NCBI GenBank assembly: GCA_030710605.1
Contig: CP092882.1
Coordinates: 18,038,316-18,102,315, forward strand
Direction of reading: 5' to 3'
From: Cordylochernes scorpioides
Taxonomy: Eukaryota; Arthropoda; Arachnida; Pseudoscorpiones; Chernetidae
Length of the DNA stretch: 64,000 bases
The position numbers were made by a program, and so were the translations under genes. The notes beneath the pieces are model-generated. The model was not told the origin of the DNA and made no database searches. It worked only from the letters and a program-made list of their open reading frames with translations. This document shows positions 1,545 through 60,551 of this stretch, one piece after another (position 1 is the stretch's first letter; every line of letters starts with the position of its first letter).

Positions 1545-1551
1545 GTTGTTT

Positions 1552-15850: not shown

Positions 15851-15869
15851 GGCTCTCCCACTTCCTCTG

Positions 15870-17314: not shown

Positions 17315-17329
17315 ATTTCCTTTAAATCG

Positions 17330-17347: not shown

Positions 17348-17350
17348 AAA

Positions 17351-20444: not shown

Positions 20445-20449
20445 CGAAT

Positions 20450-20930: not shown

Positions 20931-21049
20931 TTGTGGAAACTACTCCGGATTGAAATACCTTAATGATTTCAAGGATCACCACCAGAGGGCGACACTTGCT
21001 TGCTTCAAGAAATATGGAACTCTATTAAAGCTCAGTTTTTCCTTTCAAA

Positions 21050-28204: not shown

Positions 28205-28717
28205 TGTTACGACGCTTCTCAGCCGTCGATGTTTGCGTTCAAGGTTTACTGAGAAGACAATGTGGGTTCTTTAGGATACAGCTTAGTGCGGTATATTTAT
28301 TATACGAGCTTAAAGAGTAGATAAGTAACTATACAGTAGAAGATTGACTTGCCTTCAATGCCCGCCACTAGAGGGATCCTTCTCCGCTACCGTCTTCCCG
28401 GTCAGTCCATACGGCCACACGTTCGGGGCCCACCTGCTGCGTCTGTTGTCCTGCCGTTCTCCCTGCTGCAGGTCCCGTCGTCATCAGACAGACTTCTCTC
28501 CCCAGACTGCTATGTCTGGCAGGCCGGCCGGCTTCCTTCACGGCGACACCAGCTGGGCTCGGCTGATCCCTTCCCCGCGGCGGCGTCAGCTGGACTCCCG
28601 TCTGCCACCCCCTCCCCCTGGAATTTGTCAATCAACACTTCCTTGGAGGAGCCCCGGCATACCTTCTCTCTTGGCTTCCCCACGTCTTCTCTTCTATTTC
28701 TCTGCTGCATCGCTTCA
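28205..28717 (-). repeat. 3' LTR of the non-autonomous element (element orientation)
   Basis: 513 bp, nearly identical to 30336-30848. Confidence 0.95.
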
Positions 28718-30296
28718 CTGCCCCCTTCTCAAACCTTTTCGTCCCGAAAAGGCTGATTTCACCAGAGGCGCTGATCGGCGGCCCTTTGATCTCCCTGACG
28801 TCTCTGGCCACATGAGGGTCGTCAGCCTCCCGGAAGCGTAACGGCAGGGTTAACACCAACCCTTGTTTGCAGAACCACTTCTCAACTCGGGCTTTCTTTC
28901 CACTCTCAACCAGTGCCGACGCCATTGATTGGTCTCGCTGTCTAGCACAGGGCGGTGGTTCTCCACAAGATGGCGGCCATATTTCACTGCCTACGATGCT
29001 TCCATCTGATATTTTGAATTCTCCTTGTGAACACTCTGTAGCCGCAATGTACAAAGGGTTGTGATCGCTTGTATTGCGCTTTCGCCGCTTCCTTCCACGA
29101 CGGCGCTGTAGATCGCCGATCTTTACAGTGGATTCGTCCACCTGATCCACGCTGTCCATATCGTGGCCTCCCTTTTCTTCTTTAGGTTTCTCATTCTCTT
29201 GCTCTAGAGGCTCTCTCTTTCCTAACCCTTCAAACCTGGGCTCCTTAGTGCCGACCGCGCACAGGGCTGTGAATTTCTTAAACCTTCTGGAGGTGTCGGA
29301 TCCCGTGACAGTCTCAAGATCGGGAGAACTTTTCCTAGGCGGTGGCTGCTTGATCTGCACCTTGTCGGGCGAAGGAGCGAAGATAAATGGTACACATTTT
29401 TGGCACATCTTTTCAGCTTGCATTGCAGACGACGGCGCTGACACATTGCGCGCGACTTCCGCGTCACAGACATTGTCGTCGGACTTCCACAGAGCGTCCA
29501 ATGCTCTATCCCGTTCAGTCGGGTTGCCGGCTCCAACTTCAGGGTGCTTCGACCATCTAGCCTTGTCGCACTTCCACGGAGCATCCAGCTCCGTCCCGTC
29601 CAGTTGGATCGCCGCTGTAGTCCCTGACAGCCTGACACTGTCGCTGAAGTCAGCCACGCTGTCGCACTGCAGCTCGCCAAGATCGTTGCTGTTCTCATGG
29701 AGTATTTCAGAAAGAATCCTAGGGGTTGAATTTTCGCTCTGTATATCACCTTGAGGGCATTCTCCTTCCGTCCGCTTGATTTTATACAAAACACTGGTGC
29801 CACAGCCGTTGTCGGAGGCAATCAGCTCACCCTCCTCCGCTACACAACCAGTCTGGATCATTTCCTGATGTCGACACTCTTCGGACTTCTGGATCACGGG
29901 AGAATCTTCTAGAGTAGATTCTGGCAGTTCACTTACAACGTCTCCTGACGTGATGATCTTTGTTGTGATGGTCTTGTCGGGATCTACATCACCTGGGATC
30001 GTCTTTTGTCCCCTCAGACATTGAATACGTGGGTTATTAGTTGCTGTGATTGTTTTTGAAAAGCCATCAGGATTTTCTGGCGGTAGTACATTGAACTTAA
30101 CTTCGCAAGACATGGGTGTGGCAGAACGTTTGACATTCCGAATATGCTCGAGTCGGCTCAACCGAGAATCCAAGTTTTCTCCGAGCTCATCTACTTTCTG
30201 GCTTATTAGTCTGAGCAATTTTGTGAATTTTTCAATTTCGAGGTCGGTTAGTTTTTCCATTTTTCTTTTTAAATTGGCGCAAAATAAAATCTTCAA
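28632..30296 (-). CDS. Single ORF of non-autonomous LTR element, gag-like of unknown type
   Basis: A 554-residue open frame filling the interior and ending inside the 3' LTR. The second Met at 30260 (MEKLTDLEIEKFTKLLRLIS) is a more natural start than the first. Residues 13-65 form a probable amphipathic helix or coiled coil (KLLRLISQKVDELGENLDSR). The middle is acidic and polar with no repeat. A basic patch RRRGRKRRKR lies near residue 405 and the C-terminus is basic. No zinc knuckle and no protease, RT, RNase H or integrase motif was recognised. The intact long frame in an element with near-identical LTRs suggests the protein is real. A gag-like or RNA-binding role is only an inference from position and the basic patch. 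Confidence 0.7.
   Translation of the reverse strand: MKILFCANLKRKMEKLTDLEIEKFTKLLRLISQKVDELGENLDSRLSRLEHIRNVKRSATPMSCEVKFNVLPPENPDGFSKTITATNNPRIQCLRGQKTIPGDVDPDKTITTKIITSGDVVSELPESTLEDSPVIQKSEECRHQEMIQTGCVAEEGELIASDNGCGTSVLYKIKRTEGECPQGDIQSENSTPRILSEILHENSNDLGELQCDSVADFSDSVRLSGTTAAIQLDGTELDAPWKCDKARWSKHPEVGAGNPTERDRALDALWKSDDNVCDAEVARNVSAPSSAMQAEKMCQKCVPFIFAPSPDKVQIKQPPPRKSSPDLETVTGSDTSRRFKKFTALCAVGTKEPRFEGLGKREPLEQENEKPKEEKGGHDMDSVDQVDESTVKIGDLQRRRGRKRRKRNTSDHNPLYIAATECSQGEFKISDGSIVGSEIWPPSCGEPPPCARQRDQSMASALVESGKKARVEKWFCKQGLVLTLPLRFREADDPHVARDVREIKGPPISASGEISLFGTKRFEKGAVKRCSREIEEKTWGSQERRYAGAPPRKC
28718..28730 (-). promoter_or_regulatory. Polypurine tract of the non-autonomous LTR element
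   Basis: Minus strand reads GAGAAGGGGGCAG directly before the 3' LTR. Confidence 0.8.
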
Positions 30297-30315
30297 TTAA
30301 AATTAACTAAGCTGT

Positions 30316-30333
30316 ATCCCACTTCTGACACCA
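30316..30333 (-). other. Primer-binding site complementary to tRNA-Leu
   Basis: Minus strand reads TGGTGTCAGAAGTGGGAT, two bases inside the 5' LTR. Its complement ATCCCACTTCTGACACCA is the 3' end of a common animal tRNA-Leu including CCA. Confidence 0.85.
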
Positions 30334-30335
30334 AA

Positions 30336-30848
30336 TGTTACGACGCTTCTCAGCCGTCGATGTTTGCGTTCAAGGTTTACTGAGAAGACAATGTGGGTTC
30401 TTTAGGATACAGCTTAGTGCGGTATATTTATTATACGAGCTTAAAGAGTAGATAAGTAACTATACAGTAGAATATTGACTTGCCTTCAATGCCCGCCACT
30501 AGAGGGATCCTTCTCCGCTACCGTCTTCCCGGTCAGTCCATACGGCCACACGTTCGGGGCCCACCTGCTGCGTCTGTTGTCCTGCCGTTCTCCCTGCTGC
30601 AGGTCCCGTCGTCATCAGACAGACTTCTCTCCCCAGACTGCTATGTCTGGCAGGCCGGCCGGCTTCCTTCACGGCGACACCAGCTGGGCTCGGCTGATCC
30701 CTTCCCCGCGGCGGCGTCAGCTGGACTCCCGTCTGCCACCCCCTCCCCCTGGAATTTGTCAATCAACACTTCCTTGGAGGAGCCCCGGCATACCTTCTCT
30801 CTTGGCTTCCCCACGTCTTCTCTTCTATTTCTCTGCTGCATCGCTTCA
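30336..30848 (-). repeat. 5' LTR of the non-autonomous element (element orientation)
   Basis: 513 bp. Plus- and minus-strand open frames of 65-150 residues in both LTR copies are coincidental. Confidence 0.95.
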
Positions 30849-30965
30849 ATATTTTTCATTCTTTTTTTTGTTGAGTCCAGTCTTTTTTCTTTCTTCTTGA
30901 ATCTGTATATAAAAAGGACATAGGAGTATATCTATAACATAATGTACATAACTTTATGAAAATTT

Positions 30966-31150
30966 GAAACTATTATAGATGCGTATGATTCTTTTTTAAA
31001 AATAAAACAATTTCTACTGTCCTTACTGCAATGAAAAATTAATGGGAGGGGTTGGCTTATCAGTGGTGAACCCTCCCATCAATTTTTCCATTGCTGTAAG
31101 GGCAGTATTGTTTATTTTTAAAAGAATCATAAGCGTCTATAATAGTTTCG
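30966..31150. repeat. Uninterrupted foldback hairpin, unit B copy 1
   Basis: About 85-bp arms from GAAACTATTATAGATGCG to its inverse CGTCTATAATAGTTTC meet at a core GGGAGGGGTTGGCTTATCAG then GTGAACCCTCCC. Arms contain the tract CTACTGTCCTTACTGCAATG, recognisably the parent of the satellite landmark. A transcript would form a long near-perfect hairpin. Confidence 0.85.
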
Positions 31151-32355
31151 AATTTTCATAACAGATGGCGGGCTAATGCATCATAACTTTATATTAAATT
31201 AATTATAATATATTCCCCATATAACTTTGTAATGTTTTTTTCTCCCTCCCTCCCCTCCTCGCAAATACCTACTATATTGAGAGGAAGATATTTGCATAAA
31301 AAGTGTAGATAAGTTTAAATTTTTATTTTACATTTACTCATACCAAAATATATCGATTTTTATATAAATGCTAAGCAAAAAATATTTTTGAAAATCCGTT
31401 ATACTGTGTCTTAAATCTGAACTTCGGAAGTAGAGTATTAAAATTTTTATGAGAAATGTTGAATGTATGGATCATAGAACCCCATGGTTAAATACTATGG
31501 ATTCATCTGCGTAGTATTTTGGTATTTTTTAGTTATTTGCAATCTTCTGTCTATACTGTTATTTGCTATTAATTCTAGAATGAGTTATATTTTGAAAAAT
31601 ATATTGGAAATAATACTACGTGCTGTAAAATTGATGAAAAGCAGATTTTTCATGCTGATATATTATTTTTTCACATTAGCTCTTGAATATCTAGTGACGA
31701 CTGATTGGCCTGTTTCTCCTATATATGAGGAGGCACTGTTGGCAGGATACTCAATATGGCATTGTGCCGATTTCTAGTTTCTATTTTAATGTTTGATTTG
31801 GTAATGGGATTCCTTCATCTACGTTTTTTAGAGTTGCTAAAAATCTTTGAGCAATTTTTTTTATTTATAAGATGGTTTTTGATTTTAGATGGAGATTACT
31901 TTAGGTAACAAATAGCTCAATAAACTTTTCGGGAAGGAATTTTTTCGGTATGCTTCTGTATAAATTCTAAGTTCTTTTGCAGATTTAAGATAATATTGAA
32001 CTTTTCTGTTCTTTTGAATACAGGTAGAGAGCAATGTTTAAAATTTCGTTAATGTTTTCACTATTGATATTTTAGGATCTATTGAACCAAATGAATTAAA
32101 GTTTTTAGAACTTTATATAAAACATTTCAAAATTTAATATACGAGTACTGATATTTCAAGGTTTAACAACAACTATTCGGATATTAATTGATATTTTACA
32201 TATTGAATCATCTTCCATTTTGTAATCTTTTAGTAATATTTAATTTAAAAAAAACTCGTTTACTCATAAAATATACGCCGATTTTAACGAGATATAAAAT
32301 ACCAAAGTATATTTTAATTCATAATAAAGTTGGAATCATTTGTGTTACATGTATA
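31151..32355. other. Non-coding end of unit B
   Basis: AT-rich sequence shared with 59578-60551 up to 32106, then unmatched. It has a CCCTCCCTCCCCTCCTCGC tract and no gene. A short plus-strand frame at 31484-31777 is rich in hydrophobic residues but is broken in the paralogue (59913-60155), so it is not supported. Confidence 0.5.
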
Positions 32356-39601: not shown

Positions 39602-40426
39602 AGTTTTCGAACTGCAAGAAGCAGTTTTTCATTGTGGACAAGCATTCGTAAAACTTCTCATAATTTTAGGAAACATTTTTGCAGAAAATTTAAATAAATT
39701 CCGAAGAGATAGAAGTAACTGAAAGTAACAATCAGTGCCGAGAGAAAGAAAAAAAAATCCAACACCAATAAAATAAGTAGAGAGACAATAAAAGATGCAA
39801 GTCGCACACAAAATCAATTAGGCGGCAGGAAGTGAGAATTTTGAGACGTAGCGACAAAGACGAAACGCCCTTACTTCAATTACGTGCAAATAGAGAGGAA
39901 GTCTTGTTTCCCCCACGTCCCATGTCCGGTTTCTAATTACCACCTCCCTCGACCAGCAGCTAAATCGAGATCAAGCTGAGAACTTCTACATGTCATCCAA
40001 TTTCATTCCCTCTCTTTTGGCCGACACATAAAAATAGGTCACCGCTTTTCCCACCCCTATTATAACTAATCAATTACTTTACAGACTTCCAAAAACGTTA
40101 CATATTCCACCTACACGTAGATATCACAGACCTTAGGATCTCGACAACACATAGAATTCGCTCACACATTTCTTACAAAAAAAAAAAAAACTACTAACAT
40201 TTTTCACAATACACACAAAGACAAAAAATTTATAGGGCATAATTGAGCAATTAAAACATTTAGATCAGGGCATGTAGATACAAAAGGGTTCAAACCAATA
40301 CACCTTATTATTCATATTAACTATTTTCATTATTTTCATTCAATTAAAATTTAAAATATTTAACCAATTTAACAATTTATTCAATTTATTATCACTTTTA
40401 ATCATTAATTATCATTTTTATTTATC
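39602..40426. other. Unassigned sequence between two LTR elements
   Basis: No gene, LTR or repeat was recognised. The 3' LTR expected after the Gypsy relic was not found here. Confidence 0.4.
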
Positions 40427-41245
40427 TGTGATGAGATGAGAATTCCAGTAGCTTTTGTAGAGATCCTGTCGACTACTGAAATAAAATTGAAGTCCTGGTA
40501 GCTCTTGTTGTACTGTGTTGACCGAGAGGAACAGTCAGGATGTAGAGTTTTCCAGTACCTCTCTGCACCTTGGAAGACCTTTAAAAGTTCTCACAAAATA
40601 CAGGCAGTCGTTGTCGAGGCAGAGTGGAAAGCTGGGGATATCCACACAAAAAACGAAGACACAGTTGCACTAAGAAAGTTCCGTAAACAGATAAAAGTTG
40701 AGCCAGGAGCGAAAGATGGAGACATAGAAGTTTCTTACTCGTCTACATGATAGTTGAGATCGACATAAGGTACGACCGACGTGAGCTGACGCTAAGGGTG
40801 AACTAAACTCAACTGACTGAACTGTCTGAACTGTCAAGTCCCTGTAAGGTGATGATTTATAGGTTAAAGACGGGGTGACCTTATGTGACAGGGGCGTTTG
40901 AGAAAGGGCGCCTTTACCTGTCCAGGTGTGAGAGGGGTCTCTGCATTCCACCACATGTGACAGTGTGGGTGGCCTGTCGTGGGAATTGTGAATCTACCTG
41001 ATTTATGAGTTCCATCTTTAGACTGTTGTTTTGGTAATACTATGCTCGATCTCTGCTTTAGCTCAACTCTTAAATCTATTACAGATTTTATTTATTTATC
41101 CACTTTGTACAAATTACATTACATAGGGTGATGTAAAGACACAGATTAATCATGCGCATAATTATTTATAGATGTTTCTATATACAACATGGCAATCTTG
41201 TTATAAGTTATCTACACCATATGAGGTTGTTGTTTTAAATTACCA
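40427..41245. repeat. Left LTR of the LARD-like element
   Basis: Near-identical to 44905-45722. Boundaries could shift a few bases left, since TTATC precedes both copies. Confidence 0.8.
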
Positions 41246-44200
41246 TAGATGGGCCCCGGGAGTGAAAGGGTTTATCCGGGTTTAGGCGGGTAAAGCCTCT
41301 CTAACACAGGTAAGTAATTAAAATTTCTTTTAATTAATTTAAACTGTGAGGGTTAAAAAGGGCTATAACAAGATGATATTTGTTGGATATATAAAAGTGA
41401 AATAAAAATGACATTGTGTTTGATTAACAAAAAAGATGATTAAAATAAAATGATGACATAAAAATTCACATTCTAAGAGAATATTGGTGGGCGTTGGACA
41501 GGGTTAGTAGTTAAAGAATAAGCAATTGTGAGATTTACACATGCAATCAAATACTTAGGTCCAGGTGCAAAGCGAGGATATGGACTTGAGCGTCTTCCTA
41601 GGCAATGTTTCACCTGTGATCCTGTATAGGGTAACAGTGCTTTGTCACAATTGTAGTGTTATTGGGTTGAAAAGTTGTTGAAGAATATGTAATTGTTAGA
41701 AGTGCTCATGTAAACCAAATACTCATATCCAGGTGCAAAGCGAGGATATAGACTTGAGCTGTCTTCCTTGGCAATGTTTCACTTGCGATCCTATATAAGG
41801 GTTACAGTGTTTTGTCACAATTTTAGGATTATTGGGTTAAAAGTTGTTGAAGAAAAGTTGCTTATTAATATGATTGAGAAAGGAGTGAAATAGAGCCATG
41901 CGATAAGTAGAATTGTAGCGACAGTAGGTGATCTGACTTGACTCGAAATCAAAGGTTGAATGTGGTCCGCTAGAGCTGAAAAAAAAAGTTGAAAGTTGAA
42001 AAAAGTGAACGCTTTGTGTATGCGTTGGTGATTTGCTCTGCGGATGAAATGAAATAAACTCTTGAAGCTTGTTCAGACCAGAAGTTTGGATTTGTAAGTC
42101 TGGGGAACTGTGTTCAAGGCGTTTGTTGAATTACGAAATCAAAAAATAAATTGTCAAGCAGTGCTGTCGTTTTTCTACATTGATGTGACGCAATGACTGA
42201 AAAGCTAGTGATGAAAAATATAGGGAATTGGTTAAAGAAAATGATTGTTGAAAACGATTGTTGTAGATGCCCGATAGTGGATGATTAACTTTGTCAGATA
42301 ATAAAGGTATTTAAACAAATAAAATATAGTGAATAGAAATATAGAAATATGATTGCGGGTACAAAAAGTGTAAGTGGACAAAATTAAACCTGTAATATAT
42401 AAAATATATAATAAATAATAAAATAAAAATAATTTTTGAAACAATTAGATGTTTTACAATACTAAAATAATATCATGAAAAATAAAAGTAAATTTGATTA
42501 AAGGGTTTTTTTTTTTTTTTTAAATGTTGGATTAAAAAATTTGTTTATATAATTGAAAGGTAAGAATAAGAATAATTATTCAAGATTTTATACAAAATTT
42601 ATAATATAATTGAAGGTTATTAATGATTGGATAAATTTTAAGTAGTGTAAAATTGAACAAAAATTGTCTCTTTTGACGAAAAGTTACAGTTGTGGTGTGT
42701 GACTAGATTATATCCCTTTGGTAACATCGGTGTTTCTATGACTCTGAAACTGGGAATATGTGAAATGATCTTTTCGTTTGTCCTCAATGCTGGTATGTAG
42801 AGAATGATTTCTCTTTCGCGTTAAAAAGTCTATATAAGACTTAACCAAATTGTTTTAATTGGTGTTATCAATTAACATGTAAAATGTTTAAAGTATGTTG
42901 TGTTGTGATATCTCGTTGGTGAGATTTGTGAGATTCTCGAGGAAATCTAAATGAGTAGTGTGACACATGTGTTCAAAATGGCGTCATGAAGCTAGCGGTC
43001 AAGAAGATCTGCCTTGAGGGGGGAGAGAAGATATTCTCCTTTTGTTGAGTTGGCAATTTTCTGCTATAATTGAAAGATATGATTTTCTCGGTGTTTGTAG
43101 TTATTGTGTTTCGCATTTAGTTTAGACTTAGAAAAAATGTTATTAGGTGATGTCAGGTTTAGATGTGTGGTGAAAGTGCGACTTTCAACGTGGACACGCT
43201 TTGGGGTGAATTGTGGTGTCACAGGCGTGAAGGGCGTCTTTGGCCTGAAAAGTGAAAAAGTTTTGTGGTGTGGCACTGTGACACGAAGTGAGAAATGTGA
43301 ATGAAAAGGTGTCACGTGAAGTCTTAGTTTGGTACAAATCTAACCTGTTTCACCATAAATAACAAATTTAATAAAGTCATAGGTGGTTGTTGTATGAAAC
43401 ACATCGAGAGAATATTTGACTGTTAGTGGATGTGGCACGCTTAAGGTGAAATTATTTTATTGTTGCGACGATATAGAGCTAAGTGGAGCTTGTGTGGTTC
43501 AAGATTTGGATTTGTGTGTTAAGTCGCGCACTAAAAATTGTTGCCAATTGAGATAGTGATGCGAGGGTGTTGTAAGGTTTTTTGAAAGAAATGTGTTGAT
43601 GACCAATCATGCATGTAAAAAGGAAAAGACGAGGGAGTGTATTTATCCTCGAATATTAACGATTGTAATCGTTTTGGAAGGCTGTGACTTAAATCAGCTA
43701 CTGGCGGTGAAGTGGAGTGAATCTTTATTCCTAACTTGTTTTGGGAAAGATAGTTGTTTTCCCTAGTGGTGTTTTTGAAGATATTGTATCTTCCGATTTT
43801 TGCAATTAAAAAAAAATGCGTTTCACCTTTGTTAATTTATATTTAAAATTTGAATATACTTTTTAAATTGTTGATTATGATAATTAAAATGATTCTTATA
43901 AAAGGGCAATGTCGTGAGAGTTACAAATAATTTGAATTGGGCGCTTACTTAAAATGGTGAACATTACCAAATTTTAAGAATTGATAAAGATATTGGTCTT
44001 TTGATATAAAGATAACTAATAAGTAAAACAAAAATAAGTTGAGAATTATGATGAATGAGAGATTTTAAGAAATAATAATAATGATTTTTTTTTTTTTTAG
44101 TTGTAGATTTGGATAATATTATTATAGGTGAATTTAAGAACGACATGTAAGATTGGCAAATTTGTAAAAATGCGTGATGGGCGAAATTTTTTTTTTTTTA

Positions 44201-44904
44201 AGTAAAATTAAGAGTAATAACTTGAAATTTATAATCTGATTAAAAATTAAAATAAATTTGATAAATGAGAGTGTGAGAGTTTTAAAAATTCAATAAAAAA
44301 TGATATAAAAAAAGGTAAAAATTGATTTTAAATGCTTAAAGTGAAAATATAAATACAAAATTTAGGTTGAATCAAGTTGTGAACTTGAGGATAAAGTTAT
44401 GTAAGATTTTAAAACTTACAGTTTGGATGAAAGTTCAGTCAGGAAACTTGGTCTTGGCTTGTATTCCTGCTGACGTTGAAGACGCTCCATGTAGAGCTTG
44501 TAGACGCTTGTAGCTTCTGTGAAGTTGATTGTGGCTTGTTGCCTTGAGCATTGTCTCGACGATGTCAGGTCGAAGGTGTGGAACTTGTCACAGGGTTTGG
44601 GTACATCGCTGCTCAGTTTCCATGTCGTGTGGGATTTTCGGCTGTGTCGTTGGGGTGGTCAGCTTGCTCCCGACGTTGGCGATCGGTTAGCGGGTATGCG
44701 GAAGTCCGTTGGGGCGGCGTTTCTTCCGTAAATATCTTGTGGAGAGATTGCTTGGACGTTTCGTTGGAATGGTCGGGCTTGTTCCTCCATCTTCGCTCTT
44801 TCTCGCTTCCTATCTGAACAGTCTTCTTACCTCTTCGTTGTGTCATCCTTCGTTTTGGTCATCCTGTCGACTTAAATGTGATGATGAGTTGCTGTCGACT
44901 TATC
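41246..44904. other. Non-coding interior of the LARD-like element
   Basis: AT-rich, with no supported gene. 41545-41860 is a direct duplication of about 167 bp (marked by CCAGGTGCAAAGCGAGGATA). The tract at 41249-41270 begins TGGGCCCCGGGAGTG and might be a primer site, but no tRNA was matched. 44460-44890 is GC-richer, but its frames are short. Confidence 0.6.
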
Positions 44905-45722
44905 TGTGATGAGATGAGAATTACAGTAGCTTTTGTAGAGATCCTGTCGACTACTGAAATAAAATTGAAGTCCTGGTAGCTCTTGTTGTACTGTGTTGAC
45001 CGAGAGGAACAGTCAGGATGTAGAGTTTTCCAGTACCTCTCTGCACCTTGGAAGACCTTTAAAAGTTCTCACAAAATACAGGCAGTCGTGGTCAGGCAGA
45101 GTGGAAAGCTGGGGATATCCACACAAAAAACGAAGACACAGTTGCACTAAGAAAGTTCCGTAAACAGATAAAAGTTGAGCCAGGAGCGAAAGATGGAGAC
45201 ATAGAAGTTTCTTACTCGTCTACATGATAGTTGAGATCGACATAAGGTACGACCGACGTGAGCTGACGCTAAGGGTGAACTAAACTCAACTGACTGAACT
45301 GTCTGAACTGTCAAGTCCCTGTAAGGTGATGATTTATAGGTTAAAGACGGGGTGACCTTATGTGACAGGGGCGTTTGAGAAAGGGCGCCTTTACCTGTCC
45401 AGGTGTGAGAGGGGTCTCTGCATTCCACCACATGTGACAGTGTGGGTGGCCTGTCGTGGGAATTGTGAATCTACCTGATTTATGAGTTCCATCTTTAGAC
45501 TGTTGTTTTGGTAATACTATGCTCGATCTCTGCTTTAGCTCAACTCTTAAATCTATTACAGATTTTATTTATTTATCCACTTTGTACAAATTACATTACA
45601 TAGGGTGATGTAAAGACACAGATTAATCATGCGCATAATTATTTATAGATGTTTCTATATACAACATGGCAATCTTGTTATAAGTTATCTACACCATATG
45701 AGGTTGTTGTTTTAAATTACCA
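44905..45722. repeat. Right LTR of the LARD-like element
   Basis: Ends at the base where the Helitron begins. Confidence 0.8.
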
Positions 45723-46445
45723 TATATATATATATATAAGTCAGTGTATGTATGTATGTATGTGGGTATCTATGTCGGCTATACACGTCCACAATACGTA
45801 ACTAATCTGACTGAAATTTTAACAGTATATACGTAGAGTAGAATCTGGAAAAACTTATAGTGAAAATTTCAGGTCTCTATCCCGAATATTCTTCGAGTTA
45901 TTTGCAAATTGCGTTGAAAATTTGCCCTTTCGCTCGCAAGCAGCGCCTCTAGCGGTGAAGATGGGAGTTAATATCAGCTGACCTAATGTACACGTAAAAC
46001 GTGTTTTGACAGGACATAGATAAAAATCTGGAAGAGAGATTTATCGGATTTTTAGCCAAGAAAAATTTAAATTGACAGGTTCTGGGCAAAAATAGTTGTT
46101 TTTTTTTAGTCAGAAAAATGATGACGACAATATTGCTCTATAATGTTTGAGTATCAGATACAAAATTATATCCGGAAAAAATCCAAAAAGCAGAGACCAC
46201 GGGTGAAGCCAGTTCAATTTTATTATGCAGGAACAAAATTCTAACAGAAAAACATTCATTCAAGCGGAAGACACTAAGCCAGATCATCTCTCTATAAAAA
46301 TATCGCTTCTCAGACACAAAGTTTGGAGCGGGACGTTTCACAAGAGTGACATCTACGGCGCCAATTTATAATTGTAACGAATAGTATTTGGATAAAAACA
46401 TTTAATCGGGTAAAACCTGGGCGTTGCCCGGGTCATTCGGCTAGT
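45723..46445 (+). mobile_element. Non-autonomous Helitron
   Basis: The 5' end is a TA run followed by AAGTCAGTGTATGTATGTAT. The 3' end has the hairpin CCTGGGCGTTGCCCGGG followed by TCATTCGGCTAGT, the arthropod Helitron pattern of a GC hairpin 10-12 bases before CTAGT. It lies between A and T with no target duplication. No Rep-helicase coding sequence was seen. Confidence 0.8.
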
Positions 46446-47308: not shown

Positions 47309-47600
47309 TTAAAAAAAATTGTAGGTTGGATTTAATTCTCCTTTATATGTCAAAAAAGCGCAACAAAATACATTCAAGGACAAAATTTAAGAAAGTGTGA
47401 ACAAAATTGCCCCTGTCTCCTTGAAAAAAAAATAGACGACCAGAGACATCAAAGACTTTTCACTTCCTTAAGGTTTTGTCCACGAGTGTATGTATATTTA
47501 TAGATACAAATAAGACTAAAGAAACAAAGAACAGTAAGTTTTATATAAAGTTTGAATAAATACATTGGTTTTTAAAATAGAGCAATCCATAAATAAATCT

Positions 47601-47922
47601 TTAATTAAAAAGGCATATATTGGATAAAAATATCATTTATTTTACCAATATTTCAGTTGGCTGAACGCCAACCTTTATCAAGGTGTTATAACATATTTAA
47701 TATGTCAACAACAAACTCAGCGCCACATAACGTCAATAGAATTAAGTTTTAAAAATATTTTGTTATATTCAATGGGGAGAAACGTTTTTGACGTTATGTG
47801 GCGCTGAATTTGTTGTTGACACATTAAATATGTTATAACACCTTGATAAAGGTTGGCGTTCAGCCAACTGAAATATTGGTAAAATAAATGATATTTTGAT
47901 CCAATATATGCCTTTTTAATTA
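47601..47922. repeat. Long palindrome with hammerhead-like arms, copy 2
   Basis: Same as 6041-6360, with arms slightly better preserved in the motif (TTCAGTTGGCTGAACGCCAA on the left). Confidence 0.8.
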
Positions 47923-49476
47923 AAAATACATTAGTGAAGCACATTTTTCAATTCATATAATCGTTTATTTAGATTACCTAGTACTCTATATATTTTGTTG
48001 AATATGTTTTATTGATCTACTTGTGAAAACTACTCCGGATTGAAATATCTTTTTGATTTCAAGGAATACCACCAGAGCTTGCTTGCTCTAAGAAATATGA
48101 AACCAGTAAAGCGCGGTTTTTCATTTTCAAATAAAGAACAATTCCTACTGTCTTTAACCGATATGTAAAATATTGGGAGGGTATGGCTCTTCAGTGTTAA
48201 ACCCTCCCAGCGGGTTCACCAATTTAATCTACCATCCCGCTTTTTAGACTCTACTATTGTATTGGATGATTCTGTTTATATATATATTGAGAACTGAAGA
48301 GTTGGATATTAATGTTATGGTATTTAATTGAACTCTATGGACATATATTGAGAGGACAGTAGAATTACATGTATATATTTGCATAGAGTAATGCGCTTCC
48401 TCCAATAATGTAAATTTTGCATTAATTGAACACAAGGCAATAAGGCAGCTTTTATCTTCAAGAAATGAAACCATTAAAGCCTGAAATTTTCTTTACAAAT
48501 AAAACATACATTCTGTTTCATAAGCAGTAAAGGTTAATAAGAGATTTAAAAAAAAAGAAAAATCCATTTTATGAATAAACTTTGTACCCTCTCACAGTAA
48601 GAATATTGTGAGTTTTGGAATTTCTATTCTATATTTATGGACAAAAATTAAGGAAGTTGTATCTTTTAGTATGTATATCGGGATTCAGACAATAACTCTG
48701 AAAGATATTACAGTGACTTTTATTGGAAACACATAAGATAACCCGTGTAAACAAAATTGCCTCTGTCTCCTTAAAAAAAAAAAAAAGACAACCAGCGACA
48801 TCAAAGACTTTTTACTTCCTTAAATTTTGTCCGTGAGTGTGTATATTTGTTCTAGATATTTTTAATTAGAAGTGTGCGAGCATATTGTATTTTATCCCTG
48901 TTTACATTTCTAACCATCTTCCTTTCTTTACCTGGTCTCAACACCAATGAAACTATTTCATTTTTTGAAACCGGATTCACAATTTTTTGGCGTTGAAATC
49001 ATTTTATTTTTTTAACCAGGTACACTGTTCTTCGCATTTCTTCTGGTTGAATATTCAATTCATCTTTATTCCCTACTACTGCTACTATTAGTAAAATAAA
49101 TATTTGTTAAGACAATATATCAGCTTCCACGAAGACAGCAAAGCCCTTCGTCCAATATTTGATGATTAAAAATGAACAAACATGTTGAATTTGGGTAAAT
49201 TGGTATTTAGACGTTTATAAAAGGAATATTTTAATAAAAATATAAATTAGTATATTATAAAAATGTTTCATATATAAATAATAGAGCTTCAAAATATCAA
49301 TCTGATTCATCTATTAATTTTTTCATTATTTTCAATTAAAATCTTATGATTCAATTTTAATTTTGCATGTTAATATTTATTCAATATATTATATTAATGA
49401 TTTAAATATATATCTCATTAATCTCTATAAATGATCATTTCATTGAAATATATAAAATTATTAGTGCCCCCTTAAG

Positions 49477-49833
49477 AGATCTCGTTTCCAACGGTCCAAC
49501 AATGGGCCAGTCAGTTGGGAAGTGATGTAGAAGGCGGGTCTGCTTTGAGACTCTGTCCGTTTGTTTCCTCAGACATCCATCCCCTCCCCTGACTCTTTGA
49601 GACGGAGTCCATAGCATCGGCAGACCAGTTCCTGGCAGGGCTTGGATCATTAGCTCGGCCGAGTTATCTCGAGCGAGTTGGATGCTCTGGTTGTGCCAGA
49701 AGAGTGGAATAGGGCTTCTACGGGAGGCGAAGCGCCACTATAAACAAAGGCTAACGCGCTGAGCAGGTACCTCCTGGGTGGCGTGGAAACCCTTTGCGAA
49801 ATATTCTTGACCTGGTCTAATGATGCATGGACT
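49477..49833. repeat. GC-rich 350-bp module, copy 3 of 4
   Basis: Closest to 8034-8390, with the same A-rich tail after it. Confidence 0.7.
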
Positions 49834-50989
49834 TAAAAAAAAAAGAAAAAAAAACACACACACACATTTCATCAAACATTTCAATAAAAATTATCACCTC
49901 ACTACCAAAATTTTTAAATAGGCCTCAACGTTCTTTTGGCCTTTTGTTGTCGTGTGTTTTGTTTTATGCAGTGAGCTCTCTTTAACGGACATATAACTCT
50001 AAATTCAATTAACTTATCTACGAGTAAAATTAATTTAGAAAAAAATTGGCTTCATTTTACATACACTAGGTGTTTTGTAAACTTCGCTGGTTTCAGTAAT
50101 TCACTTTTAAAACTAAAACCTGAGGTATAGTTGGCGCGCGGGGGTTCCCTTTGAACGTAGCAGAACCCCAGGATCTATATCCGCCCTTTGAGCACTGGTC
50201 TTACACACCAACTTAATCACAATATATATACAGTCAAATAACACCAATGACCAGATAGTCTTGGTCAAATTTATACAAAATACACACACAGAGCTTATAA
50301 AAATAATAAAACTCTATTATTTATCCCTGAATTGAAGGGCTACATAACGTTCTAGAGAGGCCACCAGAAGCAGCATCAAGTTCACCTGAGGTCTTCGAAG
50401 CACTCCAACCAAAGTCCGCAACAAAACAACCCGCACCAGGCCGTCCCTCCCAGGATGTGTCTCTACCACTCGGCCCATTAGCCATATTGCAAGGGGCCTC
50501 CTATCTTTTTTTTTCAATACTAACGTATTAATGCCAACATTGGAAGAGATGGTCTACCATTTATTGCGCTGTTGTAAGTTATTAAAATTGTTCTTTGACC
50601 ATCTTCTCCACAGATGTTGCAAGACCTTCTGGACTAGCTGTCATCTCGACAGGAGATGACTTACCAATAATAGGTCATTTTCTGGGACATGAGAGGATGG
50701 TTTAGTCAGCAATAAATAGTCAGGAGTTAATACCTTTTGATCATTAGTATCAATACTCATCGGGTACAATATTCAATTTGTACCAGAACGGTCAGAAGCT
50801 CTTCATATGTCAACAAAAACGCTCCCGATAATTTGCCTCATATGATGCCTTGACCCCAGCTTCCCAAATACTACCAAAATGGGGGGCTCCTGGAGGGCTG
50901 AACTTCTATTCAGTTAGTTCATTAGCTAACACGGCAGCTATATCTTTTAATTGTTGTTGATCCAGATAGAAATATAGGGGCAAGGAAGG

Positions 50990-51365
50990 TGTTGGAAAAG
51001 AAGGAGTTCGAAGCAGCCAATGGGAGGCCGAAGGAAGCGGCTACGGGGATGCAGCGGCTAAAATGAGAAAACAAATTCAGAAGAACCTGTAAACAACTTT
51101 CGAACACGAGAATTTGCCCTGATCTCCGATTCTTTTAGTGTAAATATTTAAATATATAATTAATTAAAAACTACTTTACTTATTTTCTTAATTTATAATA
51201 AATATAATTTTCCCTCCTGTTTTCGTCTAATATTTTAATAGTGCTATAAGCAGCGACACCTTAATTTTGAACCTTCAACCCCGCCGACCAAGAATAGAGG
51301 TGATCGACTACCTCTATAGAACTTAGATCGTCGTCACACAACAGATTGGCGGTGAAAACGCAATA
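50990..51365. mobile_element. LTR-like insertion, 376 bp
   Basis: Flanked by GAAGG (50985-50989 and 51366-51370). The A1 copy has the empty site at about 9562-9572. Begins TGTTGGAAAAG. A TG...CA LTR could end at ACACAACA near 51342, leaving about 23 bases (GATTGGCGGTGAAAACGCAA) that look like a primer-site tail. Confidence 0.65.
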
Positions 51366-51815
51366 GAAGGAAAGCATTTCCCGTTTGGTAGTCACCGATG
51401 TCAACGACTGAACATCGTTTATAAAAACACCTCTCACTTTGGATCCATCCTAAACCCAATGTCTATATAACCTTTGATCGTTCAAATGTGATCTTTTGCA
51501 CGCAATATTCCTCCGCGAAGTTGTCCAAACTCGTCGGCTCATTTGACAACCACTTCCTTAAGATAAATCCTCCACATTTAGCAACTCGATGAGTTCATCA
51601 CGTAAGGCCACTGCATCTCATAGATCATCAGCACCGGTAATAATGCCATCTACATAAGTATTCTGCTCGAGATGCCCAAGGATGCCTATCCCCTTCATCC
51701 TCTACCAATTTTGATATAGTCTCATCGCTAAAAAGGAGCTGGTGCAGTGTCATAGGTTGCAGTATTAAATCGATAAGCCATTAATTTATCTTCCCACCTT
51801 TTCCTCCATATTATT

Positions 51816-52044
51816 TGTAAGCAGGTGTGCTGTACTTTGCATATTTGCTCTTAGCATGTTTGATCTTTGTGTGGCACAATTTGCATAGTTGCTATTTAAC
51901 CTATTTGTGCCAGCTATATATAGGACGTATGGATTGAGTTAGGGGTGCCAGTCCAACCTTAGGATAAGAATAGTCTTGTTACCTAAAACGACTTTTGCTA
52001 ATATAGTTTTTATCCTGACAAATAAAGAATATTTGTTTAAAACA
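51816..52044. mobile_element. Solo LTR, 229 bp
   Basis: Begins TGTAAGCAGG, ends TTTAAAACA, flanked by TTATT (51811-51815 and 52045-52049). Empty site in unit A at about 10006-10011. Contains a TATA-like CTATATATAGGAC and the polyadenylation signal AATAAAG near its end. Confidence 0.9.
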
Positions 52045-52971
52045 TTATTCTCTGCCTTTCTGCATCGCTAGGACGGACCAAAATTTGTCTATACATTTTC
52101 TCTATGTCCGCTATAATAACTAGTCTATGCCTTCACCAATTCATTATAACAGAGAATATATGGTTCTGTAGCTCTGGGCCAGTGCACAGTCTATCACTAA
52201 ATGAAAACCCATTCTTTGTTTTTGCGAGGCGTGTAAAATACGACTCTATACTTCTTTTAATCAGTTGGCCTCCAATGAGGGCATGATGAGGCAGGCAGCC
52301 TCTCAGTTTGCCGAAGTTTGCACTTGTGGCTTTGTCATCGACCTGAGTCTACTAGTTTGCGGAGACGGTCAATAGATGGTGCCTAATTTTGGCGCCTATT
52401 TGGACGAAAGAGGATTCCTTTGTATAGATATATGAGCATCGTCGCACTTGGGGCGAAGAAATTCGAAAGGATATCCGCAAAACAAAAGTATTCATCAAAC
52501 TTTATCAAAATTAAAATTAATAAAACGACTAAGTTTGTAGGGCTTCTGCCATACATGCATATAGTAACCATTGAAAATGAAGCAGCATCGCGCATGCGTA
52601 GTGGGCGCAAGCACTGATTGACAGATTCCAAGGCTCAAGATGGAGCTATGAATCAAATGAAGGATCAAATACCCATACTAGACCAATGACTCGGGGAATG
52701 CCCGGGTTTTGCTTGAGTGGATTTATAACCTAATATACGTATATTAAATATAAAAACCTGTTTTTAAAACACTAAATAAATTAATTTGTTCCCAGAATGC
52801 TTCTCAACTCGATTTTATATCAGTTGTATCTTGTCCTATGTATATTTCACTTTACTCGGATTGTATTTATTTTATATAAGTAGTATTTAGGCTTTGTGAA
52901 AAATAATACAAAAGTGAATTTGTACTTAGATCAGGTGAATAAATTATGAAAAAAGGCATTTCCTGATCGGG

Positions 52972-53289
52972 CAACTAAAAGTTGATGGCTTGCGCCATCT
53001 ACCGGAATAAATATCAAATAATCGTTAATTTTTAATTATTATTGAATTGGCCAAATACCGTTTCTTTATTAATCAAGAAAAGCTAACCAAATAAAAACTA
53101 AACACGTTTGGTCGTTGAGGTATATCTTGCACCACGCTGACGAGGGCCAAAAGCTCGAAACGCGTATGTGGTTAGCTTTTCTTGATTAATAAAGAAACGG
53201 TATTTGGCCAATTCTGGAATAATTAAAAATCAATGATGAGTTGATATTTATTCCGATAGATGGCGCAAGCCATCAGCAACTCTTAGTTG
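52972..53289. repeat. Foldback element with hammerhead-type loop, copy 2
   Basis: Inverted arms as in 10929-11275, with the intact ribozyme core in the loop. Confidence 0.85.
53131..53172 (+). ncRNA. Intact type I hammerhead ribozyme motif
   Basis: All conserved elements are present in order. Stem I is ACCACG (53131-53136) with TGTGGT (53167-53172), five Watson-Crick pairs and one G-U. The core CTGACGA is at 53137-53143. Stem II is GGGC with GCTC (53144-53147 and 53153-53156), loop CAAAA. GAA is at 53157-53159. Stem III is A-U and C-G around a 2-base loop (ACGCGU, 53160-53165). A GUA triplet precedes the predicted cleavage between 53166 and 53167. Such short stem III hammerheads are known in Penelope-like elements and satellite DNAs, often acting as dimers; ACGCGU is itself palindromic and could pair between two copies. 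Activity is not shown. Confidence 0.8.
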
Positions 53290-54428
53290 TACGAACAGGA
53301 AAAGATTTTTTCTTAATTCTTTACTTTATATACTTAGATTTTACATCATTTGGAATCTGCTTCATATGGGCTTTCTTTACCTTTTTACCAAGTATTTAGT
53401 ATAACAACAGAACAATCATATTTACTATCATTGAGATAAACAGTATTCAAAAAAAAGAAATCAATTCAATTTTAATAAATGCAGTATTTTTTTGTGGTTA
53501 TTATATAACAATATTAAAAAGTTAGTCTTAGAAAAAAAAAAACCAACACAAGCTTCGAACCTACGTTGTCGAAAATACTAAAACATCCGCTCACGATAGA
53601 AGTCAAAGATATAAACTTATAAAGGTATTTTAACCCTTACATTCGATTATAAAAGTTATTTTCAAAAATAAAATAAATGAAAGTGATTCAAAATTTTCAA
53701 CACTACTATTCGATCATCACATTATTTTGGATTCAAATATTTAAAAATATATATTTTAATTTCAAATTGTTGTTTTTAAACTCTAAAATGTGCTGCTATT
53801 TTATACTGAAATGTGGCTTTTAAAACTTTGAAATATCGTCATTATATACATTTTTAAATGTCCTTATACTTTGATATTTTACATAAAATTTTGAAAAATT
53901 GTTACTAGATTTTAAAATATAAATAGTGGTATATAGTAAACTTAAAATATTTTAATTACATTTTGGAAATACAATAAATCGTTATTAAATTTTGTATTGG
54001 TAGAGTATTAAGCTTTAAAAAAGTTGATATTACACTTTAAAATATCAGGGTTAAATTTAAAATATCATTAAGCTTTAAAAAAATGTTTTAAAATGTAAAA
54101 TCGCATTAAGGATAGTAGATGTTTGTTTTATGTATAAAAGGAACATTAGTGTTTTAATGTTTTATTTCTTATTTATAGATGGTGCGTTTATTGTATTATA
54201 ATAAAAACGTTTTATTAAAACTATATTAAAATGTACTGAATAAAATAGAAAATATATAATTTTATGAAATATAGAAATATTTTTAGGTAATAATCAAAGA
54301 GAAATTTAAGAAAAAAACTTCGATATAAAGATAATTCCAATATGCGATTGTTCGACTGTAATTTATTGGAGTAAAAGCAGAAATATCAAAAGACACGCTT
54401 CAAGTCAGTTTTATGGACCAAATATAGG

Positions 54429-54642
54429 CTCGACGGTGGCGCTCGAGTGGCAGATGTGGGAACTAAAATTAGCTTTGTATTATTTACTACCCACCTATTG
54501 AGAAATCTGAGTGGGATAACTTTCAGAAATTATTTACTTACAATTATCTGCCCACACAAACACTAATCCGTTTTAAACGGGGAATAAAGAGAATTAAGCT
54601 AATTTTAGTTCACACTTTCGCCACTCGAGCGCCACTGTCGAG
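54429..54642. repeat. TIR MITE, unit A copy 2
   Basis: Same ends as 18888-19101. Confidence 0.85.
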
Positions 54643-54726
54643 CTGAGATTTACTCCATTCAACTGGATTGAATAAATCTCTTTTGATTTCACGTTTTTTT
54701 TTTTTTGAATAAACTCATATATATAT

Positions 54727-55570
54727 ACTAGCGGATGTGTACCCGGCTTCGCCCGGGTTTTATCTGAGTGATGTTTGCCTAACGAATATTATATATTATG
54801 AAGTATAATAAACAATGCTAAAGATTAGTTTTAATTATTAATCAAGATTGTGTGTGAATATGTGAGAAAGATGTAATATCGTTGTTGTTTTCTTGGCCGA
54901 CTGTTTTACATATGGTGTTATCTTAAAATTGCTTGTTTTGAATATTTTTTTAGATTGAGTTGAATGAATTGCTGATTTTTTTTTTTGTATTTATATATAA
55001 ATAAAATTAACTCTGTTGAATTTTTTTGTATTTTATCGATAACAGCAAAGTTATGTATTTTAAAGTTAGGAAAAATATTTTGATGTTAAGCAAAACCTGC
55101 TCCATCTCGTTTTACATAAATGTTGAAAATTTGGTCGAAATTGATGCATTGTAACGAAAGTTTTTAGCGAACACCACTTATGAAATTTCCATTTATATAG
55201 AAGATATAATATAAATGAGTTTTAAAAATTGTTTTAAAAAAAAATGCATTGGCCGGGAATCGAACCCTGGCCGCCCGCGTGGCAGGCGAGCATTCTACCA
55301 CTGAACCACCGATGCTTTAAAAAAATCAAATTCATTTATCGTCGCGACCAGTGCTGCGCCCTAGCGGTAAAAGACTGGAACTAACGCTTTTTGGTTTTTT
55401 ATTTTTAAAAAAAGCACATTAACTTTTTTAGTTTTTTGAATAGCCTATATGTTAAACGAAATCTTCAGCTACCTACATGCGAAATTCCATAATGATTGAG
55501 TCAGTAGATTTTGCGTGATGCGATAACAAACATCGATTTCGCATTTCATTTTTATATATATAAGGAAGGA
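54727..55570 (-). mobile_element. Non-autonomous Helitron carrying a tRNA-Gly sequence
   Basis: On the minus strand it begins TCCTTCCTTATATATATAAA (55570 down) and ends with the hairpin CCCGGGCGAAGCCGGG then TACACATCCGCTAGT (54727). It sits between A and T inside an AT run; the uninterrupted run is visible in the paralogue at about 19180-19195. No Rep-helicase coding sequence. A tRNA-Gly sequence lies inside on the same strand. Confidence 0.9.
55245..55315 (-). tRNA. tRNA-Gly (GCC), probably slightly degenerate
   Basis: 71 bases starting GCATCGGTGGTTCAGTGG, with anticodon loop CTGCCAC (anticodon GCC), B box GGTTCGATTCC and discriminator A. Two mismatches are seen: C5 against A68 in the acceptor stem and A50 against G64 in the T stem. 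Nine T residues follow directly (55244-55236), a good Pol III terminator. There is no CCA or intron, as expected for a nuclear gene. It may still be transcribed, but the stem mismatches make a pseudogene plausible. Its location inside a Helitron indicates capture. Confidence 0.88.
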
Positions 55571-55797
55571 TATATCAAAATATATTTACATATCAGCGTT
55601 GTATGTTGAATTGAGCTAAAATTTTATGTTATAGAGGTTTTAGAATTATTTCTTTTACTTTTTTTAATATTCAAAGACGATGCGTGTTTGCTTTCAATAT
55701 ATTAAAAAAATATTTTTTTTTCATTCACTTTTATTATCGTAAAGATAGAGGCTGCCTGGCCGGCATTCATATTTCTTCAAATTAAAGATACTACGGC

Positions 55798-55858
55798 CAG
55801 TAAATCTTTTTATTGTCTCGACGTTTCGACAAAAATCTTTTGTTCTCGTCAAGAGCGA
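55798..55858 (-). ncRNA. Hammerhead-like motif, core mutated
   Basis: Paralogue of 19445-19483. The core reads TTGACGA instead of CTGACGA, so the first core C is lost; GAAACGTC is retained. Expected to be inactive. Confidence 0.55.
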
Positions 55859-56457
55859 ACAAAAAAAAAAAACACTTTTATTATAAACGTACGTTTTTTT
55901 AGCCGCTAAGGCTTTGCGCAATATTAATTAAATTTAATCTTTTTTTATCACATTTCATCGTTTAAAATAATCTTCATACAATATTTTTTTAATATTCAAT
56001 TTTTTTTTATTTTAGAGGAATGTCTCTGTCAACGCCAAAGCTACAGAGATTGCAAAACTAATTGTTTTTTTAAACAATATTTTGGGAGTTAAATAAATTA
56101 TGTGTTTTTACATAAGTTAAAAGGTGTAATGATTAGAACTTTGAAACACCAGCGAATTTATTTGAAATCTCGCTGGAACTTTCTTTTACCACTTTAAAAC
56201 ATCTCAAGAATTTATTTATCTAACTTTTTGTCATTCTTCATTAATTTAGTAACTACACTCATTGAGGAAGTTGTACCTCTCAGTATGTATATCGGGATTT
56301 AGACTGAAAGATATTACAGTGACCTTTATTGAAGATACACGAGTTAACCAGTTTAAACAAAAAGACCGGCAACATCAAAGACTTTCCACTTTCTTAAGTT
56401 TTGTCTATATATATATGTGTTATGATACATTAGCGCGCTATCTGTTATAAAAATAGG

Positions 56458-56795
56458 AAACTATTATAGACGCGTATGATTTTTTAAAAAATTAAACAAT
56501 TTCTACTGCTCTTTCTGCAATGGGGAAAAAAAAATAAATGTATGTAATCCTGCTGTCCTCAAAGCTTATGTCCATAGTTCATCTAAAATACCCATTCCAG
56601 AGTCTAACATCAGTATTACTATAGAAGGAAGATCGAAAATGCAATATAACAGCGATGTTGTATATTAAACTGGCGAAACCTCTGGGAGGGTTCACCACTG
56701 ATGAGCCAGGCCCTCCCATTATTTTTTTCCATTGCAGTAAGGGCAGTAGAAATTGTTTAATTTGTAAAAGAATCATACGAGTCTATAATAGTTTC
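56458..56795. repeat. Foldback hairpin with interrupted left arm, unit A copy 2
   Basis: Same organisation as 20115-20444. The right arm is well preserved (TTGCAGTAAGGGCAGTAGAA). Confidence 0.75.
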
Positions 56796-57099
56796 GCGAA
56801 TAATTGAAGAAACAAAGTATCTCTCAGTAAGTGTTATATAAAGTTTGAATAAATATTAGTTGTTATTTATATTTGATTTAAATAATTTTGAATTTTTAGA
56901 TTCGTATAATTGTTTATTAAGATTATTTAGTACTATGTATTGGTGCATATGTTTTAATAATCTATTTGTGAAAACTTCTCCAGATTGAAAATACCTTTTT
57001 AATTTCAAGGACCACCACCAGAGGACGACACTTGACACTAACTTGCTCTCAAGAAATATATAACTCTAGTAAAGCTCAGTTTTTATTTCCAAATAGAAC

Positions 57100-57420
57100 A
57101 TACCTCCTGTCTTTAAATGATATGAAAAATATTTGGGCCTGGCTCATCAGTGGTAAACCCTCCCAGTACTGAACACACGGCAATAACACACCACCTATTT
57201 TTTATTTTCAAACAAAACACACATCTCCTACTGTCCTTGACTGCTATGAAAAATATTTGGGACTGACTCATCAGTGGTGAACCCTCCCAGTACTGAGCAC
57301 ACGGCAATAACACACCACCTATATTTTATTTTCAAATAAAACACACATCTCCTACTATCCTTGACTGCTATGAAAAATATTGTGAGGGCCTGGCTCATCA
57401 GTGGTGAACCAGCGGTTTCG
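57100..57420. repeat. Short satellite array, about 2.5 units
   Basis: Three landmarks spaced about 125-127 bp, diverged from the long array (ACACACCACC in place of ACGTGCCATC). This is the unexpanded state of the array in unit B copy 1. Confidence 0.85.
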
Positions 57421-59020: not shown

Positions 59021-59390
59021 TTCTTGAGATAAAAATAAGACAATTTTATCAAAAATTCCAATAAAATATAACACCACTATAAACTTTTAAATAGTTTTCA
59101 AAGTTCTTTCGGCCATTTATTGTCTTGTGTTTTATACAGTGAGCCCTCTTTAACAGACATGTAACTCTAAATTCAATTGGCCTATTTGATATTTATTTTA
59201 AAAACAAAATTAGGTTTTCATTTACATACACCAAGATAAAATGCATTAAGGTAAAACCCAGTGATTACCTGGGTCTCTATATTTCATTCTTTTTTGTTGA
59301 GTCCGGTCTTTTTTCTTTCTTCTGGAATCTGTATATAAAAAGGACATAGGAGTATATCTATAACAATGTACATAACTTTATGAAATTTCT

Positions 59391-59577
59391 AAACTATTAT
59401 AGACGCGTATGATTCTTTTTTAAAAATAAAACAATTTCTACTGCCCTTACTGCAATGGAAAAATTAATGGGAGGGCCTGGCTTATCAGTGGTGAACCCTC
59501 CCATCAATTTTTCTATTGCAGTAAGGGCAGTAGAAATTGTTTTATTTTAAAAGACTCAAGCGTCTATAATAGTTTCG
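59391..59577. repeat. Best-preserved foldback hairpin, unit B copy 2
   Basis: Arms from AAACTATTATAGACGCGTAT to the inverse, through CTACTGCCCTTACTGCAATG and its near-perfect inverse, with the core GGGAGGGCCTGGCTTATCAG then GTGAACCCTCCC. About 75-80 paired bases per arm. Confidence 0.88.
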
Positions 59578-60551
59578 AATTTAATGCATCATAACTTTTT
59601 ATATTAAATTAATTATAATATTATATATACAAATTTCCAATACGTATAACTTTGTAAAGTTTTTTTTTCTCCCTCCCTCCCCTCCTCGCAAAATACCTAC
59701 TATATTGAGAAGATATTTGTATTAAAAGCATAGATAAGTTTAAATTTTTATCTTGCATTTACTCATACAAAAAATATATCGATTTTTATATAAATGCTAA
59801 ACAAAAAATATTTTTGAAAATCCGTTATACTGTGTCTTAAATCTGAACTTCTGAAGTAGAGTAATAAAAAAAATGATATGATAAATGTTGAATGTATGGA
59901 TCATAGAACACCATGGTTAAATACTATGGATTCATCTGCGAGGTATTTTTGTATTTTTTAGTTATTTGCAATCTTCTGTCTATACTGTTATTTGCTATTA
60001 ATTCTAGAATTAGTTATATTTTGAAAAATATATTGGAAATAACACTACGTCCTGTAAAATTGATGAAAAGTAGATTTTTCATGCTGATATATTATTTTTG
60101 CACATTTGCTCTTGAATATCTAGTGGCGACTGATAGGCTTGTTTCTTCTATATGAGGAGAGGCACTGTTGGCAGGATACTGAATATGGCCTTGTGCTGAT
60201 TTCTAGTTTCTATTTTAATGTTTGATTTGGTAATGGGATTCCTTGATATACGTTTTTAGAGTTGCTAAAAAATCTTTATACCGAATTTTTTATTTACAAG
60301 ATAATTTTTGATTTTGGTTGGGAATACTTTAGGTAAAAAAAAAAAAATAGTTCGATAAACTATTCGGGAAGGATTTTTTTTTTTTTTTTTGGTATGCTTC
60401 TGCATAAATTCTAAGTTGTTTTTTTTTGCAGGTTTAAGATAATATTGAACTTTTCTGTTCTTTTGAATACAGGTAGAGAGCAATGCTTAAAATTTTCACG
60501 TTTTCACTATTGATATTTTATGACCTATTGAACCAAATGAATTAAAGTTTT

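Follow-up and report, generated by a model that had tools for sequence, protein, structure and literature searches.

The question raised by this locus is whether a 64,000-nt stretch of Cordylochernes scorpioides DNA (hereafter, the window) carries a genuine self-cutting RNA motif between the arms of an inverted repeat, and what kind of element would host it. A sequence-only reading had described an intact hammerhead ribozyme in the loop of a foldback element. The answer towards which we lean is a genuine minimal type I hammerhead located where loop and arm meet in a short, non-coding, MITE-like foldback, a reading supported by the complete catalytic core, by the rarity of its compact form in random sequence and by the long-armed foldback with its candidate target-site duplication (TSD).

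Hammerhead core, helices and predicted cut

A strict descriptor placed the minimal type I motif at positions 53131-53172 of the plus strand, where the invariant features of the type (core CUGANGA, GAA, the A15.1-U16.1 pair and H17) were all found. The 5' strand of helix I (ACCACG, 53131-53136) is complementary to the substrate strand UGUGGU (53167-53172) over 6 bp, including one G-U pair. It is followed by the catalytic core CUGACGA (C3 to A9, with C at N7; CTGACGA in the DNA; 53137-53143), by helix II (53144-53156), whose 4 bp, one of them G-U, join 53144-53147 with 53153-53156 around a 5-nt loop, and by the core GAA (G12 A13 A14; 53157-53159). Helix III (ACGCGU, 53160-53165) consists of the pairs A53160-U53165 and C53161-G53164 around a 2-nt loop; since ACGCGU is self-complementary, this helix could reach 6 bp between two copies. 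Positions A15.1 and U16.1 correspond to 53160 and 53165, H17 is A53166, the GUA triplet occupies 53164-53166, and the cut is predicted between A53166 and U53167. The core, pairing and cleavage triplet initially described were thus borne out: the motif is confirmed, at the level of sequence, as a real hammerhead pattern and the RNA is predicted to be self-cutting, the kind of ribozyme being one already known. The three helices (6, 4 and 2 bp, open end in helix I) were present as a pairing pattern, which differs from the predicted fold described below.

Covariance models told less in favor of the motif. No hammerhead was detected at the gathering score in an Rfam scan of the window, and the significant match that had been expected did not appear: with the threshold opened, the top hammerhead over 461 bases was HH9 (14.0 bits vs. 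a gathering score of 52, E = 1.7), a value that stands for the best clan member only, overlapping matches of the other clan models (type I included) being suppressed. As no Rfam match reached the gathering score, the locus is classed as a motif fitting the hammerhead pattern and not as an Rfam member. On the minus strand over the foldback, matches to SQ2397 (E 0.003, 29.3 of 100 gathering) and RUF1 (E 0.001, 28.8 of 70), together with weaker Rfam matches to MIR7993, SNORD45 and SNORD50, were taken as AT-rich hairpin artefacts. The core pattern had no occurrence in viral or in prokaryote contigs, collections unlikely to contain pseudoscorpion DNA.

A scan of both strands of the window for helices of at least 4, 3 and 1 bp returned two sites only (53131-53172 and 11102-11143). 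The same limits gave 56 sites across 500 dinucleotide shuffles of the window (0.11 per window). Helices of at least 6, 4 and 2 bp were found in none of the 500 shuffles, and helices of at least 6, 4 and 1 bp at four sites over all of them. Among 2.4e9 strand-bases of composition-matched, first-order random sequence, 31 sites had helices of at least 6, 4 and 2 bp (0.0017 per window, ~65 per 2.5 Gb) and a single one also had loops II and III of 6 nt or less (~5e-5 per window, ~2 per 2.5 Gb); the limits for helices and loops were picked after the hit was seen, the single count has a wide error, and the 2.5-Gb genome size behind the per-genome figures is an assumption. The loose core pattern without helices was uninformative (2 matches vs. 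0.90 expected, with at least 2 in 23 of 100 shuffles).

Foldback element and position of the motif

An inverted-repeat alignment defined a left arm at 52942-53093 and a right arm at 53165-53318, separated by a 71-nt loop (53094-53164) that contains the first 34 of the 42 hammerhead bases. Without gaps, the arms extend over 111 nt (52983-53093 and 53165-53275; spacing 71 nt) and are 92% complementary; with gaps they reach out to 52942 and 53318, giving 155 columns, and so have the long terminal inverted repeats of Mutator/Foldback (MITE-like) elements. A perfect 46-bp run ends at 53169 in the right arm and is followed by one mismatch and three matches to 53165. A 9-bp candidate TSD, TACTTAGAT, lies at 52923-52931 on the left and at 53331-53339 on the right; at least 9 bp were shared by 21 of 2000 random window pairs. 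GC content was 0.313 across 52001-54000.

On the right, the inverted repeat stops inward at 53165 (ungapped) or 53169 (perfect run), on either side of the predicted cut (53166/53167). The innermost part of the right arm thus doubles as the substrate strand of helix I, facing left-arm positions 53086-53091 with one mismatch. The initial placement of the motif in a foldback loop therefore held with respect to the inverted repeat, but not with respect to a cut in mid-loop, since 53165-53172 belongs to the right arm. With the substrate strand in that arm, the arms compete with helix I; judging from the sequence, they would act either as an extension of helix I or as its competitor, and the putative ribozyme is not hanging free in the loop. 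The idea that the whole loop is a degraded palindrome carrying another, minus-strand hammerhead was rejected: the alignment scores of the loop halves were reached by 871 of 2000 (local) and 1039 of 2000 (global) shuffles.

The statement that the element has no accompanying coding sequence was upheld, as the longest ATG/GTG/TTG frame overlapping it was 52 aa. A protein-database search with the right arm's longest open frame gave no candidate, and the patterns of the arms had no occurrence in the viral and prokaryote collections, where pseudoscorpion DNA is not expected. Among the 10 of 22 stop-to-stop ORFs of at least 70 aa that were scanned by Pfam between 46 and 60 kb, there was one match, a DUF5641 fragment at 50317-50553. 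Our best guess is that 52942-53318 is a Mutator/foldback-like MITE, an assignment by analogy that follows from the long arms and a 9-bp candidate TSD like those of insect Mutator-like families and of Tm1 foldbacks.

Duplicated copy of the locus

The only other foldback copy in the window (10913-11289) lies within a segmental duplication (10009-11897 vs. 52044-53930, 94% match). It surrounds the second motif, 11102-11143 on the plus strand, which is identical at 41 of 42 bases (copy A; the 53131-53172 locus is copy B). Copy A has T at the equivalent of 53164, so that C15.2 is unable to pair with position 16.2 and the C15.2-G16.2 pair is lost. The possibility of counting the two copies as independent support was ruled out, because one duplication spans both motifs. 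The copies differ at 6 positions within 52930-53320, one of which falls inside the 42-nt motif, giving no sign of constraint. In copy A, 8 of the 9 bases of the candidate TSD are kept, a match equalled by 72 of 2000 random pairs.

The arms themselves showed an uneven pattern. In both copies the inner 46 bp are free of differences, and all the differences between arms (18 events over 153 columns in copy B, a 3-column gap being counted once, and 17 events in copy A) are located elsewhere. Shuffles were as extreme in 351 of 20000 cases for copy B and in 530 of 20000 for copy A. This is only suggestive of arms under selection, and the copies are not independent.

The duplication around these copies is larger and in direct orientation (5929-11897 and 18361-21377 vs. 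47493-57410, in blocks ~86-98% identical), and it was interrupted by later insertions. One copy contains a U6 snRNA sequence (6804-6910) bordered by a 13-bp direct repeat, CATATATTGAGAG, with its first bases partly repeated, and the other copy has the empty site near 48342-48354; the insert looks like a retrocopy with a target-site duplication. A BEL/Pao LTR retrotransposon (11897-18360, identified by Pfam), with LTRs of ~1 kb that are 99.6% identical, is inserted in copy A; AGTGG flanks it on both sides, and copy B has the empty site near 53925-53930. Over 95% of the 830-aa Pao protein of this element (13079-15571), identity to a Cordylochernes scorpioides protein reaches 98%.

Predicted folding

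In the lowest-energy fold of the plus strand, a competing hairpin at 53107-53151, formed by 53107-53113 with 53145-53151 plus inner pairs, is predicted to bury the catalytic core. The foldback as a whole pairs strongly with itself (-189.6 kcal/mol, z -22), while the 52-nt motif region was no better folded than its shuffles (146 of 200 equal or better, z 0.66). For the 42-nt core as a monomer, the best fold was -9.2 kcal/mol vs. -2.9 for the forced hammerhead. Across ten stretches, the monomer hammerhead made up 1.6e-6 down to 6.5e-11 of the ensemble, falling to ~1e-10 in the longer ones, figures calculated with one helix III pair only, as the software is unable to form a 2-nt loop. With arms (53045-53213), the hammerhead reached -63.0 vs. 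-84.9 kcal/mol for the trapped fold, a gap of ~22 kcal/mol.

The dimeric hammerhead of the 42-nt core had -25.3 kcal/mol, close to the optimum over all dimer shapes (-25.5) and below a pair of separate monomers (-18.4). For the 52-nt region the dimeric hammerhead fell behind (-26.5 vs. -31.8 for the optimal dimer), and with arms, at -145.4, it lagged both the optimal dimer (-176.8) and a pair of trapped monomers (-169.8); the core dimer of copy A (-13.7) was worse than its two monomers (-19.8). Of the forms calculated, the dimer of the isolated 42-nt core alone is predicted to lie near its own optimum. One study, to go by its title, reportedly deals with dimer cleavage by small hammerheads associated with Penelope-like elements (PLEs). 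Given a model that forms no 2-nt loop, includes no tertiary contacts and was run with no known active hammerhead as control, these energy gaps argue against activity without proving inactivity, and it may be, on these predictions, that the foldback arms keep the hammerhead from working. Hence, what stood of the "intact ribozyme in the loop" is the complete core with its low chance rate; "intact" was too strong a word in view of the trapped core, of a 52-nt region folding as its shuffles do, of the silence of Rfam, of the substrate strand lying in an arm and of the duplicate that lost one helix III pair.

Origin of the motif

According to PMC7761336, thousands of minimal type I hammerheads occur in many metazoan genomes, mostly dispersed and non-coding; with that base rate a genuine relative is likelier here than a chance resemblance, a single locus not being decisive. 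A chance origin by mutation in the loop of the foldback, with no ribozyme activity at any time, is unlikely in our estimation, yet deserves serious weight: there is one locus, then duplicated, lacking Rfam support and with a core trapped in the predicted folds, some 65 sites per 2.5 Gb would be expected if the loops are left free within the scanned ranges, and the screening of many windows favors rare hits. Against it stand the very low rate of the compact form and the self-complementary helix III, as in the dimeric type I ribozymes described in PMC3088659.

The literature also connects minimal type I hammerheads to PLEs. Those of PLE pseudo-LTRs, where they are typical, and the dispersed ones resemble the present motif in that helix I is open, helix III is tiny or missing, the setting is non-coding or pseudo-LTR and dimer action is possible (PMC7761336 and PMC6155905). 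The locus could accordingly be PLE debris, with the hammerhead derived from a pseudo-LTR and the arms made of pseudo-LTR sequence that reverse transcription linked in inverted orientation, and the arm boundary lies ~2 nt from the cut, as if cDNA had ended at ribozyme-cut RNA and then switched template. We regard this origin as rather improbable: the boundary match was spotted post hoc, and no PLE protein was recognized among the 20 ORFs that were scanned by Pfam (10 of the 20 ORFs of at least 150 aa, plus the 10 of 22 stop-to-stop ORFs mentioned above), not counting two RVT_1 fragments at 690-3020 that could be of any reverse transcriptase type. Moreover, unlike in PLEs, each element has a single motif, not a tandem, placed where the arm and loop of an inverted repeat meet, the two motifs of the window being 42 kb apart through segmental duplication, and no sizeable ORF starts at helix II, as the ORF of the PLE PAc does according to PMC11167929. 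A further candidate is a lone unit of an animal retrozyme, a small non-autonomous retroelement spreading via circular, self-paired RNA. Size, low GC, self-pairing and type I hammerhead would all suit it, and are shared with metazoan non-LTR retrozymes of a few hundred bp (PMC7229834). This we find very hard to credit, given that the tandem 150-450 bp repeats with one hammerhead each are absent from the window, which has two motifs far apart, and that the DNA inverted repeat by itself accounts for the self-pairing; in the same source, metazoan retrozymes are tandem repeats expressed as circles, in contrast to the single unit found here, and canonical retrozyme hammerheads carry loop-loop contacts.

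For the arms, the comparison is the one behind the MITE assignment. Long inverted arms and non-autonomous, MITE-like members are shared with the Tm1 Mutator/Foldback elements of root-knot nematodes, in which, according to PMC3169594, TSDs are mostly of 8-10 bp (45 of 53 elements) and one group carries an RNA motif, a histone hairpin. In the present case the RNA motif is a hammerhead, and the likeness lies in the arms and the candidate TSD of one duplicated locus. The Muta Mutator-like elements (MULEs) of Aedes aegypti, compared without regard to transposase, are similar as well, with terminal inverted repeats longer than 100 bp in 12 of 14 families and 8-9-bp TSDs in all 14 (PMC5225508). A hammerhead within a foldback element was not described in the open-licence titles and abstract openings among the matches listed, and this setting may be new.

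Proposed behavior of the transcript

If, as we prefer, a genuine hammerhead sits at the loop/arm junction, helices I, II and III could assemble in a plus-strand transcript, and a self-cut after A53166 would give the right-arm RNA a 5'-OH end. When transcribed in full, the foldback would have its substrate strand occupied by the left arm and its core buried by the second hairpin, so that cutting would need short, nascent or paired RNA, that is, a truncated or nascent transcript or two ribozymes joined via the self-complementary ACGCGU of helix III.

A stronger version, to which we assign very little probability, is that ribozyme and inverted repeat are functionally tied, with arms that extend helix I and a repeat that ends at the cut. 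The foldback would then be made or copied when reverse transcription reaches the ribozyme-cut end and switches template, and the arms would act as a brake, cutting taking place only in nascent or paired transcripts. Recurrence of hammerheads inside foldbacks, if true, would link self-cutting RNA to an inverted-repeat element and would make it testable whether the ends of such repeats are set by ribozyme cut sites; in the sequence analyzed, the arrangement extends to one locus, duplicated once.

The cellular role of such ribozymes is not established even for PAc. PMC11167929 reports that the PAc hammerhead cut in vitro only with protein present, that insertion was unaffected in catalytic mutants and that no RNA-seq ends lay at the cut site; in view of the protein-dependent cutting, a ribozyme inactive as naked RNA could still have a role in the cell. 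What minimal type I hammerheads do in the biology of retrotransposons is described in PMC7761336 as still a mystery.

Other repeats in the window

The window is rich in transposable elements. An array of 127-bp tandem repeats was found at 21037-24179, its shifted copies being ~95-97% alike, with related sequence near 57081-57410. Four palindromes (6036-6365, 47597-47927, 30954-31161 and 59384-59582) were ~81-87% self-complementary and had no clear loop. The latter two are copies of one duplicated stretch and have direct repeats of 10 and 9 bp at their edges, CATAACTTT(A), while the edge repeats of the former two are merely 8 bp (of low complexity) and 6 bp. Two further stretches are bounded by long direct repeats, namely 28205-30848 (513 bp, 99.8% identical), which includes a 554-aa ORF without a Pfam match, and 40422-45724 (826 bp, 99.6% identical); both are possibly young LTR elements.
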